From assembly GCA_005776395.1 (NCBI GenBank), contig SXPJ01000083.1, forward strand, positions 1 through 64,000: 64,000 nt of DNA. The letters are read 5' to 3'. The stretch's first letter is position 1. Each line of letters begins with the position of its first letter. A model generated the notes under the pieces. It was not told the origin of the DNA. It made no database searches and saw only the letters and a list, made by a program, of their open reading frames with translations. The translations under genes were made by a program, and so were the position numbers. Source of the stretch: Bdellovibrionales bacterium (GTDB taxonomy: Bacteria > Bdellovibrionota > FAC87 > UBA2466). This document shows, piece after piece, positions 46,126 to 53,880 of this stretch.

Positions 46126-46869
46126 ATGTTTAGTTTTGCATTTATCGTTTTGGTGTTTTTTGGCGGGCTTCTACTCTCATCAATTAAAGTACTTCAAGAG
46201 TACGAGCGGGGAGTTATTTTTAGATTAGGAAGGCTGATTGGAGCTAAAGGACCCGGTCTTGTAATCCTTTTACCTGGAATCGATCGCATGGTGAAGGTTG
46301 GGCAAAGGGTCATTACAACCGACATCCCGCCACAAGATGTGGTCACTAAAGATAACGTTTCAATTGCGGTTAATGCCGTACTTTTATTTCGCGTAATAGA
46401 TCCAGTTAAAGCTATTCTCAATGTAGAAAGTTATCTTGAAAGCACTTACCAATATGCTCAGACCACATTACGATCGGTCCTAGGCTCTGTAGAGCTCGAT
46501 GAAGTTTTAAGTGAACGAGAAAGTTTAAACAGAAGAGTTCAAGAGATCTTAGATCTTCATACCGACCCCTGGGGAGTTAAAGTTTCTGCGGTGGAGATTA
46601 AACAGGTAGATCTTCCTAAAGAGATGCAACGAGCGATGGCGACTCAGGCTGAAGCTGAAAGACAACGACGAGCCAAGGTGATTGCCGCAGCCGGGGAGTT
46701 CCAGGCAGCAGAAAAACTGGTGGAGGCCGCTAAAGCCATCCAAGGCCACCCTGAAGCTCTTCAACTACGTTATTTGCAAACCCTTCAAGAGGTCGCAAGC
46801 GAAAATAACTCGACGACTATTTTCCCCATTCCTATTGATCTTTTTAGACCGTTCTTAGAGAGAAAATAG
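46126..46869 (+). CDS. SPFH/stomatin-like slipin
   Basis: A 247-residue slipin with an N-terminal membrane segment and SPFH domain: [56 protein letters not shown] and [21 protein letters not shown] coiled-coil PQ-type end follows ([21 protein letters not shown]). It is the usual partner and substrate of NfeD; GGAG precedes the ATG. Confidence 0.95.
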
Positions 46870-46939: not shown

Positions 46940-47620
46940 TCAAGCAACCGTTTCCGCTCTATACCGACGCTCAACTCCATCGAGAAAGTCGTATAAAGTA
47001 TTTAATGTTTTCTCCACCACTTCAACGGCTCGATCTTCATCCTTCTCTGAAGTGCAGAGTTGAGAAAGTAAGTTCATTTCGGTCTCGGAATGATAGACAT
47101 CGTAGACTTGGTGAGTCTTGAAAAACTCCACCGTTTTTTCATCACTCACTCCATAAAAACATTTCAAGCCATCGATCTTTGTACGAGCTACATCCGGCTG
47201 TTGTCTCTCATAAGAATATAGGGCCGCTAAGCCATCAATAGGATTTTCCGAACTCATATAATCTCTAAAAACCTTAAGAAGATTTTGAGTTTCATCGGAG
47301 AAAAAATGCTTCGGTAATTCTAAGCGATCCACCCCCATACCTTCAGCAAATCGGCTCCATAATTCCAAGTGGTTCTCATCTCCTTGCTCTTCATGAATTA
47401 GATTTTCAAGAAGCGCTTGTCGCATCTTAGGATCTTCACATTTGGTGTGTAGAGCACTGAGAAATCTAGGAAACTCTTTTTCAAATGCATAATACTCTTT
47501 AGCATAACCCTGAAGCTCGTTACGGGATAACTCTCCACAGACCCATCTTGTATAAAATGAATGGGACAATAAATGTTTCTGTTGAATTTTATCCTCAAGA
47601 CGTGATCTTAAAGTGCGCAT
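46940..47620 (-). CDS. CADD-family haem-oxygenase-fold protein, probable self-sacrificing pABA synthase
   Basis: A 226-residue helical protein of the TENA/PqqC/CADD fold. The metal ligands of Chlamydia CADD appear at constant offset: E77, H84 (HEEQGDENH), E138 (YSYERQ), H170, D174 and H177 (HQVYDVYH). The residues reported as sacrificed or needed for p-aminobenzoate formation have counterparts Y23, Y39 and K148. From this I infer it makes pABA for folate from its own tyrosine, replacing PabABC. The correspondence relies on my memory of CADD numbering. Monocistronic. Confidence 0.85.
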   Translation of the reverse strand: MRTLRSRLEDKIQQKHLLSHSFYTRWVCGELSRNELQGYAKEYYAFEKEFPRFLSALHTKCEDPKMRQALLENLIHEEQGDENHLELWSRFAEGMGVDRLELPKHFFSDETQNLLKVFRDYMSSENPIDGLAALYSYERQQPDVARTKIDGLKCFYGVSDEKTVEFFKTHQVYDVYHSETEMNLLSQLCTSEKDEDRAVEVVEKTLNTLYDFLDGVERRYRAETVA

Positions 47621-47763
47621 CTTCTCTCCTTTTAAAAAAAGCTACTATAACAACGAGATCTTTTTAAAGCACAGAAATTTTTCTATAAACAAATACCGCT
47701 TTGCGCCACCTTTCTAATAAAGTCTATTGCCATCCCAGGTTGGGCTCGTTAATTTGAGACTCT

Positions 47764-48936
47764 ATGCAAACAAAGGTTAAATGGTTTCTTATTATCGCCC
47801 TTCTAATCCCCTGTTGGGTTATCGGTATTAAGTATGAAATTGATCTTGTCGTTCTTCATGCCACCGCTCAGTTTCTTAATAATGACTTTACCCGGGTGTA
47901 TATGCAAAATGGGGATTTAGGCCGCTATTTTTATGGCCCCTTCTCGCTTATTTTAATTAAGCCTTTAGGCTATTTGTCATTTCCTGTGGTTAAATATTTT
48001 TGGCTCTGCTTACAAACGGTCTGTTATTTTGCCTTTGGATCTATTCTTACCGACCTCTATCCTTTTCTAAAAGAGAAGAGGTATTTTTGGGGGTGGGTTC
48101 TCATTTGGATTATTGCTATTAATCCCATTCATAATAATTACCAAAGCAATAACATTCAACTCATGCTCGCTACACTTTTGGTCTTAGCTGAAAAGCTAAC
48201 AAGAAGTTCATCCTCTTCAAAACAGATCCTAGGTGGGATTCTTGTCACCTTTACTGCGGGCATCAAGGTTTTTCCTGCGTTTTTGGTGCTCTACTATTTC
48301 ATTGCAAAGAATAATGCCACTAGAAAAGGGATTCTTTTAGGCGGACTTATCGTTATTGCAAGCCCCTTTCTTTTTTTAGGTCCAGACAAGGCTCTGTTTT
48401 TATACCAAGGATTTTTTAGTAATCTAATCACCTACTCAGCTGAAAACAGTCTAACCAAGATCAATGATATTCTTTGTCTCCCCTCTCTCCTTGCTAGAAT
48501 AGGTTGGAGCTCTAAAGCCATTAATATTTGTGTTTTAATAATTTCAGCTCTGTTTTACTTGTGGGTTTATTTATCTAGACTTTCATTTAAGCAGGGAAGA
48601 ACCGAATATCACCTTCTAGCGATGGCATGGGCTCTAAGTGTTCTATTAAACCCCAGCACTCGACCCCACTATTTTATTTTTTATATTCCTGCGTTCTGCT
48701 CGATTTTGGAGGTTATCTATTCAAACAGCTACTCAAAAGTTTTAACATGGGGGCTCATCTTCTCAACACTTCTTATTGCTTTTACAGCGGAGGGGGTTGT
48801 AGGAAAACAGTGGAATGAATGGTTAGAGCATGCAAATTTTCCAACCTATGGAATGGTATTGCTCTGCTTAGTGCTGACAGTGGCAGTGCTAGCAACTCAG
48901 AACTCTCGAGACAATCAAAGAGTGCTTACAAATTAA
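47764..48936 (+). CDS. GT87-like polyprenol-linked glycosyltransferase, multipass membrane
   Basis: A 390-residue protein with about ten hydrophobic segments. The arrangement of an early DLVVLHATAQFLNN loop, FYGPFSLILIKPLG and NPIHNNYQSNNIQLMLATLL, then a later LLNPSTRPHYFIFYIPAF, fits the DUF2029/GT87 family, whose mannosyltransferases act in the outer leaflet with lipid-linked sugars. Donor and acceptor are unknown. It overlaps the next convergent gene by four bases. Confidence 0.8.
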   Translation: MQTKVKWFLIIALLIPCWVIGIKYEIDLVVLHATAQFLNNDFTRVYMQNGDLGRYFYGPFSLILIKPLGYLSFPVVKYFWLCLQTVCYFAFGSILTDLYPFLKEKRYFWGWVLIWIIAINPIHNNYQSNNIQLMLATLLVLAEKLTRSSSSSKQILGGILVTFTAGIKVFPAFLVLYYFIAKNNATRKGILLGGLIVIASPFLFLGPDKALFLYQGFFSNLITYSAENSLTKINDILCLPSLLARIGWSSKAINICVLIISALFYLWVYLSRLSFKQGRTEYHLLAMAWALSVLLNPSTRPHYFIFYIPAFCSILEVIYSNSYSKVLTWGLIFSTLLIAFTAEGVVGKQWNEWLEHANFPTYGMVLLCLVLTVAVLATQNSRDNQRVLTN

Positions 48937-49467: not shown

Positions 49468-52400
49468 TTACGGGGTTGACGGGACCTTCAATACCGTAAT
49501 GACGATAACATCCTGGAGGCCATTCATGTTCACTGGCTCTAGTCGAGTTCTTATCACTATAATGTTATCTTTCGGTTGAAACATTAGGCCCACTTCGTTA
49601 GTGACGGAGCCAGCTTTTTGATAGCCCTTTGAGTGGGCTAAGACCTGTTGGCGTGTATTGGCGCTATTGAATACAGGACCTTCGCCACTTATTAGGACTC
49701 CATCAAAATAAAGGCCTCCCTCAGGATTCGGCAGATACTCTATAATAGCTTTCTTTGTTGACCATTGTTCCGTGTTAAAAACAGAAACTCCTTCTATCGA
49801 TGGGCCTACGCTCTTTACCCCTTCGAGTTGCCGACTTATAAGGCTCCTTGCTTGACCGTTATTCTTAGCCATGAATGCTGACATGAGGCCTTGCGGTTCT
49901 TCAATTAATCGATACTGAGTTTTGTTGATTGGGGAGCGAATCCTCTCAAAGATCGAAAGGTTAAAAGCGATGTCATCGGTATAATCTGGTAGAGTTTTTG
50001 ACCCAATTTTAGTTGTGATTGTTGCTGGCGATGTAATTTCAGCCGCGACCTTCGAGAAATCTTTGTAGTCGGGAACTCGTCCTTCGGCATGCGCTCGTTT
50101 AGAAGCTTCGGCATAAACTTCACTGGCAGCCTGATGCATCTCGTTTACGACACCTCTCTTCATCTGGACCAACTGTTGGGTGTTACTTCCCGCAAACCAG
50201 AAGCCTAAATCATCGATAAGTTTGCGAGCTTCGTTATAAGACCAGCCCTCTTCTTTCATTAATTGGGTAGCTTCTTGAAAACGCTTTTTGAATGAGCTTA
50301 TTTCGAATTCGGAGAGAGGTTTGCCTTTCCTGGCTTGAAACTGTGCTATTTGAGCCTCTGCCCCCCCTTCCAAAACCCTCATTAATTCTCCAGATTTCCT
50401 GGAATCGCCCTTGATTATGTTTATAACTCTTGGGTCCTGAGGATCAAAGCCAGGGGCCTGGGCCGCTTTCAATTTCTGAAAAAGTTGTGCGCTTCTTATT
50501 TCTATGGGGGCAGTAGAATCGTAAGGTAGATTATGGATTTTTTGAATCTCACTCCCAATATTCTTATCTCCGATTTTAGCAATCTCTTCCAATTGCTTGG
50601 CTTGATAGGGATCTCTATCAAGGAAGCCCTCCTTTGAAGGTTTTTTTTCATTCAAAAGATCGTGAACTGTTTTACCCGTATTTTCTTTGAATTCGCTTAG
50701 TTTTTTTCCAGTTTCAGCAAAGACCTCTCTAGGACGATTCCAGAAATTCTTCTCGGTTTCATTTCCATTTTCCAAGTTAAAAAGGGGGTCTGCTCCTTTA
50801 GAGAAGGCAGAACCTTCGGCTAGTTTGGGATTAATCTCATAGAGAAGTCTCGCGTAGGCGGTTGTCAGGGCATCTTGTCTAGACGGATCTTTCATTACCT
50901 CTCTAGCAAAGGCATGGGAGAGATCTCTTTCCTTAAGAGCCTTAGGGTTGACTCCAAGCTCCTTGGCAGCCTTGCTGAGTTCGTATTTTCTGATGACATT
51001 GCCACCCAATTTCTGAACTTTATGCATCACCGCGGGGAGGCCGGCGACGCCAAAGGCACCGACCCCGGCTTGGTAATAATCTCCACTATTAACATTCTCG
51101 AGCACCTGGCCGCCAGTCTGGTAATTGAGATAAGCTCCGATGAGATCTCCCACCGGTTTTGATATTCCAGAGGCAGCTCCGAGTAAGACACCACCGCGAG
51201 CCGTTTCTGTGACTTCGTCCCAATCGAGAGAGGTCTTGGCATTGACTCCTTCGGGGAGTGATCCACTTTCTAATTTTCTCCGATCGTCCTTAATCTTAGC
51301 CCACTGATCCGCCAGAGAGAATCCGGCACCAAGACTAGATCCCGCGAGGGCACCTCCCCCTATTTGAATCCCCTTGGCGGTGTACCAGGCTCGTGTTCCA
51401 ATCGCGGCAAAAGTGACGGCTTGAGTACCTTTAGTGGCAGCGGCGAAGGCCGCTCCAGCCCCCATAGTGGCTACCGTCGCGACCGCTCCGCCGATTTTCT
51501 GACGAACCTCCGACGCATATTGTTCGGCCTTTCCCTGAGCCATTTCAGCCAAGCCATTGCTCGCATCGCTAGCGAGTTTTCTATATTGTTCGGCTGCTTC
51601 AGGATCAATGGCTTGTAATCTCGCTGCTGATTTAGAAATTTCATCTATCTGATTTTGAGCCTCTTTCATGGTCGGGTTTTCCTTACTATAGGAAATGCCT
51701 TTTGCTAAATGAATCAAAGCAGACATCACTGGAATGGGCGTTTTTTCGGAGGGAATTCCGCTTTGGAAATTAACAAAACCAGATGCCGAGGCGGTAGTTG
51801 CGTTGTCGAAGAGTTCCTGTAACGAAAGAGATTTCGACTTTTCTTCTCCTGCTCCTTTCAAGATATCAGAAATGAGTTTTCTTTCACTCTCAATAATCTC
51901 TAATTTTCTGAAGGGAGAAATAATATGCTTCTCATTTTGTTTTTCGGATAAAACTCGAAAGTCATCTTCATAACCTTTTCGATTTTTGGCTAGGAATTTC
52001 TCTGCGACGCTCCGAAGAGATGCAAAAGACTTAAACTGATAAGGATTAAGCTCCCTCTGTTCGGTGCGATCGAGTTCTTTCTTGATTAAAGAAAAGATCA
52101 TGAACTCTGTCTCTTTCATTGAGAAACGTTTCTCTGGAGTAAGATCAACGCCCCTCTCCTTGAGATCAGCTTCGAGGTTTCGGTAGCTTTGAAGTTTATC
52201 AAAGGCTTCTCGCAGTGATGGGGGTAACCGTTCAGCGGCCATACTCGAGAAGGTCTCTCCTTTATTGGCCTGGTCAAAAATTTCTTTTGCCCAATCAAAT
52301 TCGAACCCCTTGACTTGAACAGAATCTGCCTTGGTGACTGGATGTGTTCGAACAGTGATGCGGGCCCTGGTAGCGTCGACGTGCAGAGAATCGATCAGGA

Positions 52401-53880
52401 TCTGAGAACCCAGTCCATTGTATTGTCTATCGAGCGCTTTCCGTAAAGCCTTAGAGTCTTTTAACTTGGCTAAGAATTGAGGATCGAATTCACCTTTATT
52501 AAAAGGAAGAATCGGGAGCTCTTCTTCTTTATTTGTTTCTTTATGGGTCTCTTTTTTGAAAATGATTCCCGATTTCTCGAGAAGAGCCCGATCGTCTTTC
52601 GCATAAGCGTATCGCTCTTTGATTCCAGAGATCTCTTTTTCGTATTCTTTTTTAGTTGTGACTTGAACTTTATTGTCGTTATCCTTGGGAAAAATAATGT
52701 GTTCTCCCAGGCGAATAGGCTCTTTTTGTTTCTGAGTAAGTTCTCCAAGTCCCGCTTTAATGAGAATCGTTCGCTTCTCATCTTGAGAGGCATTATCTCC
52801 CAAGGAAAGGCCTGATAAAAATTCAGAAAACTTCTTAGGATCGGCTAGGGTGTAAGTTAGAGATTGAGCGTCCTCTTGGTTTACTCCATACTGAATCAGC
52901 TTAGAAACTGCCTCAGTTCTTTCTTTAAGGATTTCATTTTTTGATAAAATTCGAATCTCGCCCATTTTGAGATCAGGGGGAAGGATAAAGTTTTTCACAT
53001 TCCAATCTGCTTCTTTTTCATTCAGCGGAATCGAAAAGATTCGATTCTTGTCAAAAATCACTTTCGAAAACTCAGGGTTGATTAAAGTATTGAGAATTTT
53101 TTGGCTGTGGGCTCTCTTTTCCGGATCCTCACTCCTAGCAAGAGAGAAAAGTTTAGTTAAGTTTTCTGGCGAAAGACGCTTAAAAGGATCGGATGTGAGA
53201 TCTAGTTTTTTTTCAGCTTCATTGAGTTGTTCGACCGTTCTAAACTTATGAACGGGGGGCTGGAACTCTATAAAAGGAACATTGTAGGGGGTCGTGAGAG
53301 CTGGGTTTTTATTGGATTCTTTACCCCCCTCATTTCTTTCAGCTTCTTCGCCAAAAGAATTCTCTTCCTTTTTTTGAACTACTAATTGATTCTTTAGTTT
53401 TTTTAGATTCTCTTCCAAGACAAAAAGGTCCTTGGCTATTTCTTCTAGGATTGTCTCACGCCCGTTTTTTTCAATAGGATCTTTTTTTTCTTCTATCTTA
53501 GATTTCTTTCTATCCTCCTCATAATCTCCATGTTTTATCCCCTGGTTTTCGTGATCTGTAAGTGGAGAGATATTAGGTCCTGGATCCAGCTCTCTTTCTT
53601 TTCGCTCTTGGTACTTGATAAATTCATTGTACTCTTTCAGAAGTTTTAGCTCTTTGGAGATTGTTTGAACCTGTTGAAACTGAGCAACTTTATTTTTCTC
53701 TTTATCGACCTGACTGAGTTGAATCTGCAGATTCCTGATTGAATCGCTCAATCCTTTTCGGGTGAGAAGGTTGGAGTTAGTAACCTCGTTGGCCTTAGAA
53801 TGAATTGCAAATATAAAAAAAACAGAGAAAAAGACTAAGGGAAATAAAAATCGTTTATTTAAACGCCATTGATGTTTCAT
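49468..53880 (-). CDS. Giant exported protein of unknown function (1470 residues, no cysteine)
   Basis: A 1470-residue protein with a signal peptide (about 1-30, ending HSKA). Residues 40-190 are charged and coiled-coil-like. From about 200 to 760 it is helical and polar. Residues about 785-870 are an Ala/Gly-rich hydrophobic stretch (VATVATMGAGAAFAAATKG, then IQIGGGALAGSSLGAGFSLA), like the hairpin regions of polymorphic toxins or channel-forming proteins. The C-terminal 200 residues are strand-rich (YLPNPEGGLYFDGVLISGEG). I find no cysteine anywhere. I do not recognise a domain; toxin-like, adhesin-like or predation-related roles are guesses. Confidence 0.85.
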   Translation of the reverse strand: MKHQWRLNKRFLFPLVFFSVFFIFAIHSKANEVTNSNLLTRKGLSDSIRNLQIQLSQVDKEKNKVAQFQQVQTISKELKLLKEYNEFIKYQERKERELDPGPNISPLTDHENQGIKHGDYEEDRKKSKIEEKKDPIEKNGRETILEEIAKDLFVLEENLKKLKNQLVVQKKEENSFGEEAERNEGGKESNKNPALTTPYNVPFIEFQPPVHKFRTVEQLNEAEKKLDLTSDPFKRLSPENLTKLFSLARSEDPEKRAHSQKILNTLINPEFSKVIFDKNRIFSIPLNEKEADWNVKNFILPPDLKMGEIRILSKNEILKERTEAVSKLIQYGVNQEDAQSLTYTLADPKKFSEFLSGLSLGDNASQDEKRTILIKAGLGELTQKQKEPIRLGEHIIFPKDNDNKVQVTTKKEYEKEISGIKERYAYAKDDRALLEKSGIIFKKETHKETNKEEELPILPFNKGEFDPQFLAKLKDSKALRKALDRQYNGLGSQILIDSLHVDATRARITVRTHPVTKADSVQVKGFEFDWAKEIFDQANKGETFSSMAAERLPPSLREAFDKLQSYRNLEADLKERGVDLTPEKRFSMKETEFMIFSLIKKELDRTEQRELNPYQFKSFASLRSVAEKFLAKNRKGYEDDFRVLSEKQNEKHIISPFRKLEIIESERKLISDILKGAGEEKSKSLSLQELFDNATTASASGFVNFQSGIPSEKTPIPVMSALIHLAKGISYSKENPTMKEAQNQIDEISKSAARLQAIDPEAAEQYRKLASDASNGLAEMAQGKAEQYASEVRQKIGGAVATVATMGAGAAFAAATKGTQAVTFAAIGTRAWYTAKGIQIGGGALAGSSLGAGFSLADQWAKIKDDRRKLESGSLPEGVNAKTSLDWDEVTETARGGVLLGAASGISKPVGDLIGAYLNYQTGGQVLENVNSGDYYQAGVGAFGVAGLPAVMHKVQKLGGNVIRKYELSKAAKELGVNPKALKERDLSHAFAREVMKDPSRQDALTTAYARLLYEINPKLAEGSAFSKGADPLFNLENGNETEKNFWNRPREVFAETGKKLSEFKENTGKTVHDLLNEKKPSKEGFLDRDPYQAKQLEEIAKIGDKNIGSEIQKIHNLPYDSTAPIEIRSAQLFQKLKAAQAPGFDPQDPRVINIIKGDSRKSGELMRVLEGGAEAQIAQFQARKGKPLSEFEISSFKKRFQEATQLMKEEGWSYNEARKLIDDLGFWFAGSNTQQLVQMKRGVVNEMHQAASEVYAEASKRAHAEGRVPDYKDFSKVAAEITSPATITTKIGSKTLPDYTDDIAFNLSIFERIRSPINKTQYRLIEEPQGLMSAFMAKNNGQARSLISRQLEGVKSVGPSIEGVSVFNTEQWSTKKAIIEYLPNPEGGLYFDGVLISGEGPVFNSANTRQQVLAHSKGYQKAGSVTNEVGLMFQPKDNIIVIRTRLEPVNMNGLQDVIVITVLKVPSTP

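Follow-up and report, generated by a model that had tools for sequence, protein, structure and literature searches.

Self-sacrificing synthesis of p-aminobenzoate (pABA) has been established for two enzymes (PMC11965152; PMC13108848), CADD of Chlamydia trachomatis (CT610; structures 1rcw, 8va9 and 8vag) and NePabS of Nitrosomonas europaea (NE1434). The gene for CT610 is clustered with folABKP (PMC1971073). NePabS belongs to a free-living host, and its gene is located apart from the folate biosynthesis genes, near the folate-using glyA (PMC11965152). The two proteins differ at a pair of positions that influence metal selection: CADD, with Tyr at both of them (141 and 170), shows a preference for Mn/Fe, whereas NePabS, with Phe at both (148 and 177), favours Fe/Fe; the NePabS variant F148Y works about equally well with Fe/Fe or Mn/Fe (PMC11965152). 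PqqC, BesC, UndA and FlcD share the heme-oxygenase-like helical bundle but, unlike the CADD type, they act on small-molecule substrates (PMC13108848).

We analyzed a window of 64 kb (the whole stretch of DNA considered here), in which a gene related to these enzymes is found on the minus strand, preceded by a Shine-Dalgarno sequence and placed between two genes that serve as markers of the locus:

46940..47620, minus strand: predicted CADD-family self-sacrificing p-aminobenzoate synthase gene, 226 aa (ATG start, profile score, PDB alignment, model)
47626..47630, minus strand: Shine-Dalgarno sequence AGGAG, 5 nt upstream of the ATG of the CADD-family gene (direct reading of the sequence)
46126..46869, plus strand: SPFH/Band 7 gene, convergent to the CADD gene, a conserved locus marker unrelated to folate
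47764..48936, plus strand: GT87 family membrane glycosyltransferase gene, divergent from the CADD gene, a conserved locus marker

In contrast to CT610, the gene lies outside any folate cluster; metF and gcvT are located at a distance of 7 kb or less from it. A scan of the window with Rfam gave no match, and nothing was found in the scan for promoters and terminators. The window also contains an ORF of 1470 aa (49468-53880, minus strand) without any Pfam match; its N-terminal part is charged and rich in helices, and its C-terminal region is large.

The 226-aa protein obtained 251.3 bits (E = 7e-75) against TIGR04305, the NCBIfam CADD family, for which the curated family cut-off is 200 bits; a chance match can be dismissed. 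Membership in the PqqC, BesC and TenA families was discarded, given that the scores (49.9 of 240, 38.9 of 500 and 23.9 of 130 bits, respectively) were far below the family cut-offs; the identity with PqqC, BesC, UndA and FlcD was only 15-20%. The identity with C. trachomatis CADD was about 39%, and a phmmer search against the PDB retrieved this protein as the nearest sequence (1rcw/8va9, E = 4e-48, query residues 7-215). The same search retrieved 9pj4, a '4-aminobenzoate synthase' of 267 residues (E = 2e-41). We take this entry to be NePabS itself (N. europaea) or a protein very closely related to it, given the presence of PDIAAVKIDGLAK and YIAWTEGK, peptides reported in PMC11965152; it reads HLLKHPF where the peptide in that work is HLLQHPF. 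The AlphaFold model of the protein had a pLDDT of 95.9, and its top four matches in the PDB were all C. trachomatis CADD (8vag, 1rcw and 8va9 among them), with rmsd values of 1.3-1.4 Å and TM scores of 0.91-0.97. By every criterion that can be evaluated from the sequence, the predicted product is a CADD-family pABA synthase.

The first-pass annotation of this DNA had proposed that nine residues of CADD reported for pABA synthesis have counterparts here, each shifted by minus four. The alignment with CADD confirmed this proposal, since it is free of gaps up to about residue 189, residue i of the query corresponds to residue i+4 of CADD, and all nine positions, including those of the Tyr/Lys set, are aligned. 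The six metal ligands (three His and three carboxylates) are all present in the query. The codons of these residues, and of those at the metal-selecting positions, are the following:

47552..47554, minus strand: Y23, predicted sacrificial Tyr that would become Gly (CADD Y27, NePabS Y25; alignment, role from PMC11965152)
47504..47506, minus strand: Y39, essential Tyr by alignment (CADD Y43, NePabS Y41; role from PMC11965152)
47177..47179, minus strand: K148, predicted amine donor (CADD K152, NePabS K159; alignment, role from PMC11965152)
47390..47392, minus strand: E77, metal ligand (CADD E81; alignment)
47369..47371, minus strand: H84, metal ligand (CADD H88; alignment)
47207..47212, minus strand: Y137, metal-selecting position (CADD Y141, NePabS Phe148), and E138, metal ligand (CADD E142; alignment, PMC11965152)
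47123..47125, minus strand: F166, metal-selecting position (NePabS F177, CADD Tyr170; alignment, PMC11965152)
47111..47113, minus strand: H170, metal ligand (CADD H174; alignment)
47099..47101, minus strand: D174, metal ligand (CADD D178; alignment)
47090..47092, minus strand: H177, metal ligand (CADD H181; alignment)

The query therefore resembles CADD in its fold, the six ligands, the sacrificial Tyr and Lys and the essential second Tyr, and it resembles NePabS in the ligands and the sacrificial Tyr and Lys; the loop insert that NePabS has after residue 58 is absent from it. The alignment of 31 intact homologues (30 sequences of the phylum and that of Nitrosomonas, 32-76% identical to the query) revealed 29 columns that are invariant in 31/31 sequences, including Y23, Y39, Y43, E77, H84, W88, E138, K148, F166, H170, D174 and H177. 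The ligands are generally retained in HDO-fold proteins, and this is so for two paralogues found in the class, L019 and L022 (with Glu at position 174 in L022, D174E), but the positions of Y23, Y39 and K148 are occupied in these two by Leu, Phe and Ile (L019) or by Phe, Phe and Leu (L022). Because these paralogues retain the ligands and not the Tyr/Lys set, the match at Y23, Y39 and K148 goes beyond mere ligand conservation. L019 (genome G004) and L022, the second HDO protein of the window's genome, encoded beside the homogentisate dioxygenase gene (hmgA), were rejected as additional pABA synthases, since in both of them the residues that would be sacrificed are neither Tyr nor Lys.

Regarding the metal-selecting pair, the query shares Y137 with CADD (Tyr141) but has F166 instead of the Y170 of CADD; it shares this Phe with NePabS (position 177) but differs from it at Y137 (F148 in NePabS), and hence matches the laboratory variant F148Y. 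Y137 is present in 30/30 intact phylum sequences, and all the intact phylum copies show the same arrangement, Tyr followed by Phe. By analogy with the two characterized enzymes, this pair is predicted to allow activity with either Fe/Fe or Mn/Fe, i.e., to be cambialistic.

The first reading of the gene had also suggested that pABA is made by consuming a side chain of the enzyme itself rather than from chorismate, and this idea is supported by the gene content of the genome (2.76 Mb in 106 contigs, 98% complete). Gene absences were deduced from family searches, for which 14 of 14 control genomes were positive for PF00425 and likewise for PF01264. In this 98%-complete genome, we did not detect any protein with the chorismate-binding domain PF00425 (PabB, TrpE, isochorismate synthases), nor a chorismate synthase (AroC, PF01264), and both families were absent from all 15 genomes of the class (0/15). 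A complete PabABC route was not found: two proteins with PF01063 were considered as PabC candidates, one of which (L002) is IlvE, above the cut-off, and the other (L003) a D-amino-acid/branched-chain-like transaminase, under every cut-off; these proteins do not constitute a pABA route because PabB is absent. The whole class of 15 genomes, without AroC and chorismate-binding enzymes, is probably auxotrophic for the aromatic amino acids, including Trp, and probably does not obtain menaquinone from chorismate via MenF.

The genes for dihydropteroate synthase (DHPS, folP), a PTPS/QueD-like protein and FolK are adjacent, in this order, on one contig of the same genome. The PTPS/QueD-like gene (L004:2273-2626, G000 contig C64) scored under both family cut-offs and possibly substitutes for FolB (dihydroneopterin aldolase); the replacement of FolB by PTPS-III has been described in other bacteria. 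Since DHPS, the PTPS-like protein and FolK are present, dihydropteroate is predicted to be makeable provided that pABA is available, and the usual supply of pABA appears to be missing at two levels. The genome also includes hmgA, which suggests that the cell imports tyrosine and breaks it down.

From these data, we consider it very probable that the gene encodes a self-sacrificing pABA synthase of the CADD/NePabS type, and that this protein is the only recognisable source of pABA in the lineage, because there is no detectable AroC to make chorismate nor PabB to use it. We infer that the enzyme described here is functional in the organism that carries it. The family membership, the residues, the fold, the missing chorismate enzymes, the folP-PTPS-folK arrangement and the folate context of the relatives come from this analysis, and the chemistry is taken from the literature on CADD and NePabS. 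According to the latter, each polypeptide of this heme-oxygenase-like dimetal oxygenase would produce pABA a single time. Its dimetal site, formed by E77, H84, E138, H170, D174 and H177, would react with O2 and a reductant, and a radical would reach Y23 by hopping along conserved aromatic side chains, among them W88, Y43 and Y39. The side chain of Y23 would then be cleaved off the backbone, leaving Gly, oxidised to the carboxylate with oxygens derived from O2, and aminated by K148. FolP, whose gene lies together with folK at another site of the genome, would then channel the resulting pABA into folate synthesis.

In the collection used, class and order are represented by one identical set of 15 genomes. 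A CADD-family gene was present in ten of them and a true DHPS in ten, with both in nine. All the genomes carrying a CADD with an intact active site have DHPS (8/8), as compared with 2/7 of the other genomes (hypergeometric test calculated by hand, p about 0.007, uncorrected for kinship and only indicative); folate synthesis and CADD thus tend to go together. The CADD copies of the class form a single clade (support 100/100), which, as expected, fits vertical inheritance. In the class, the gene is flanked by GT87 on one side and SPFH/NfeD on the other, an M48-peptidase-like gene is often present as well, and no folate synthesis genes adjoin it at the loci inspected.

Several relatives depart from this pattern. 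In G010, which belongs to the same genus, the CADD gene (L015, contig C174:53560-54192; L056) adjoins GT87 in the same place and its ORF is full-length, but it carries the changes Y23F, Y43C, E77Q, H84E, F166Q, H170N and H177Y, so that the sacrificial Tyr is lost along with four of the six metal ligands. Among the positions invariant in the class, 7 of the 13 in the active site are changed, compared with 16 of the 71 remaining ones (p 0.04), and DHPS was not detected in this genome by family search; this is a natural disarmed copy, possibly with another role. The only copy in G003 (L014/L057, contig C16) shows E138R, H170T, D174E and H177A, and this genome keeps folP-PTPS-folK. G011 (91% complete) also keeps folP-PTPS-folK, and CADD is absent: GT87 and SPFH abut in the middle of a contig (C20:41000-50000, L054), leaving the CADD site cleanly empty, and no other copy was found in this 91%-complete genome. 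The three genomes of genus g7 have neither CADD nor a true DHPS. When dN/dS was attempted, the synonymous sites of the decayed copies were saturated. Given that G003 and G011 keep DHPS without an intact CADD, some lineages must either salvage pABA or use another route.

These genomes bear on the main alternative, namely that the protein folds and binds metal but pABA is taken from the prey or the environment, the protein itself having a different HDO reaction or a regulatory role. The presence of DHPS without an intact CADD in G011 and G003 indicates that some relatives apparently live on salvage, the ORF of G010 has remained full-length despite the loss of its active site, and CADD is unlinked to folate genes in the class. 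However, the sacrificial Tyr and Lys, which an ordinary HDO would not need, are invariant in the intact copies and absent from the paralogues, and CADD occurs in operon-like arrangements with folB and folKP elsewhere in the phylum. The family cut-off was passed in 35 of the 369 phylum genomes, and in other families a fused folK-folP is located just downstream of CADD, on the same strand, in 16 of the 23 loci inspected; among the loci checked, folB is placed between CADD and the fusion in L077, L081 and L088. A similar clustering was reported in 2007 for Chlamydia and Wolbachia (PMC1971073). On balance, we regard this alternative as unlikely for the present copy.

It is less probable still that a canonical PabABC route resides in the unassembled part of the genome and renders CADD redundant; a gene can be missing from a 98% complete genome in 106 contigs, but AroC and all the chorismate-binding enzymes would have to be missing independently in 15 genomes. 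That the protein moonlights mainly as a host- or prey-directed factor, in line with the function in apoptosis originally suggested for the Chlamydia protein (PMC11965152), is scarcely credible in view of the folate genes found next to CADD in the phylum, of a conservation pattern concentrated in the active site and of the start of the enzyme domain directly at the beginning of the ORF.

A broader scenario can be put forward tentatively. A whole class of Bdellovibrionota would have lost chorismate synthesis entirely, leaving CADD as the sole pABA maker, and folate would be built from the tyrosine of proteins, whose ultimate origin would be food or prey; the naturally mixed Tyr/Phe enzyme would run on Fe/Fe or Mn/Fe, and the lineages that abandoned folate synthesis would keep, in another role, a full-length protein disarmed at the sacrificial and metal positions.

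The chemistry, the enzyme family and a free-living example, Nitrosomonas, were already known (PMC11965152). The published Nitrosomonas case reduces the novelty implied by the first-pass annotation, namely the occurrence of this route in bacteria that are not obligately intracellular. The new elements are the chorismate-free class, the CADD-folB-folKP arrangement, the uniform Tyr/Phe hybrid pair, the lineage and the natural decay series. No report of CADD in Bdellovibrionota was found in the literature searched, most subscription papers and preprints being outside this search. The self-sacrificing pABA route would be extended to Bdellovibrionota, together with genome-wide evidence for the lack of the chorismate route. 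The natural Y/F enzymes would make metal selection and the radical path testable without engineered mutants, and G010, G003 and G011 represent natural 'knock-outs' that illustrate the outcome of giving up the pathway.

Besides CADD, the HDO-fold proteins of about 300 aa, L022 (G000 contig C78), L016, L017, L020, L021 and L023, largely keep the ligands and do not have the sacrificial Tyr and Lys. A gene of this type is located directly 3' of the homogentisate 1,2-dioxygenase gene in all six genomes of the genus (6/6).
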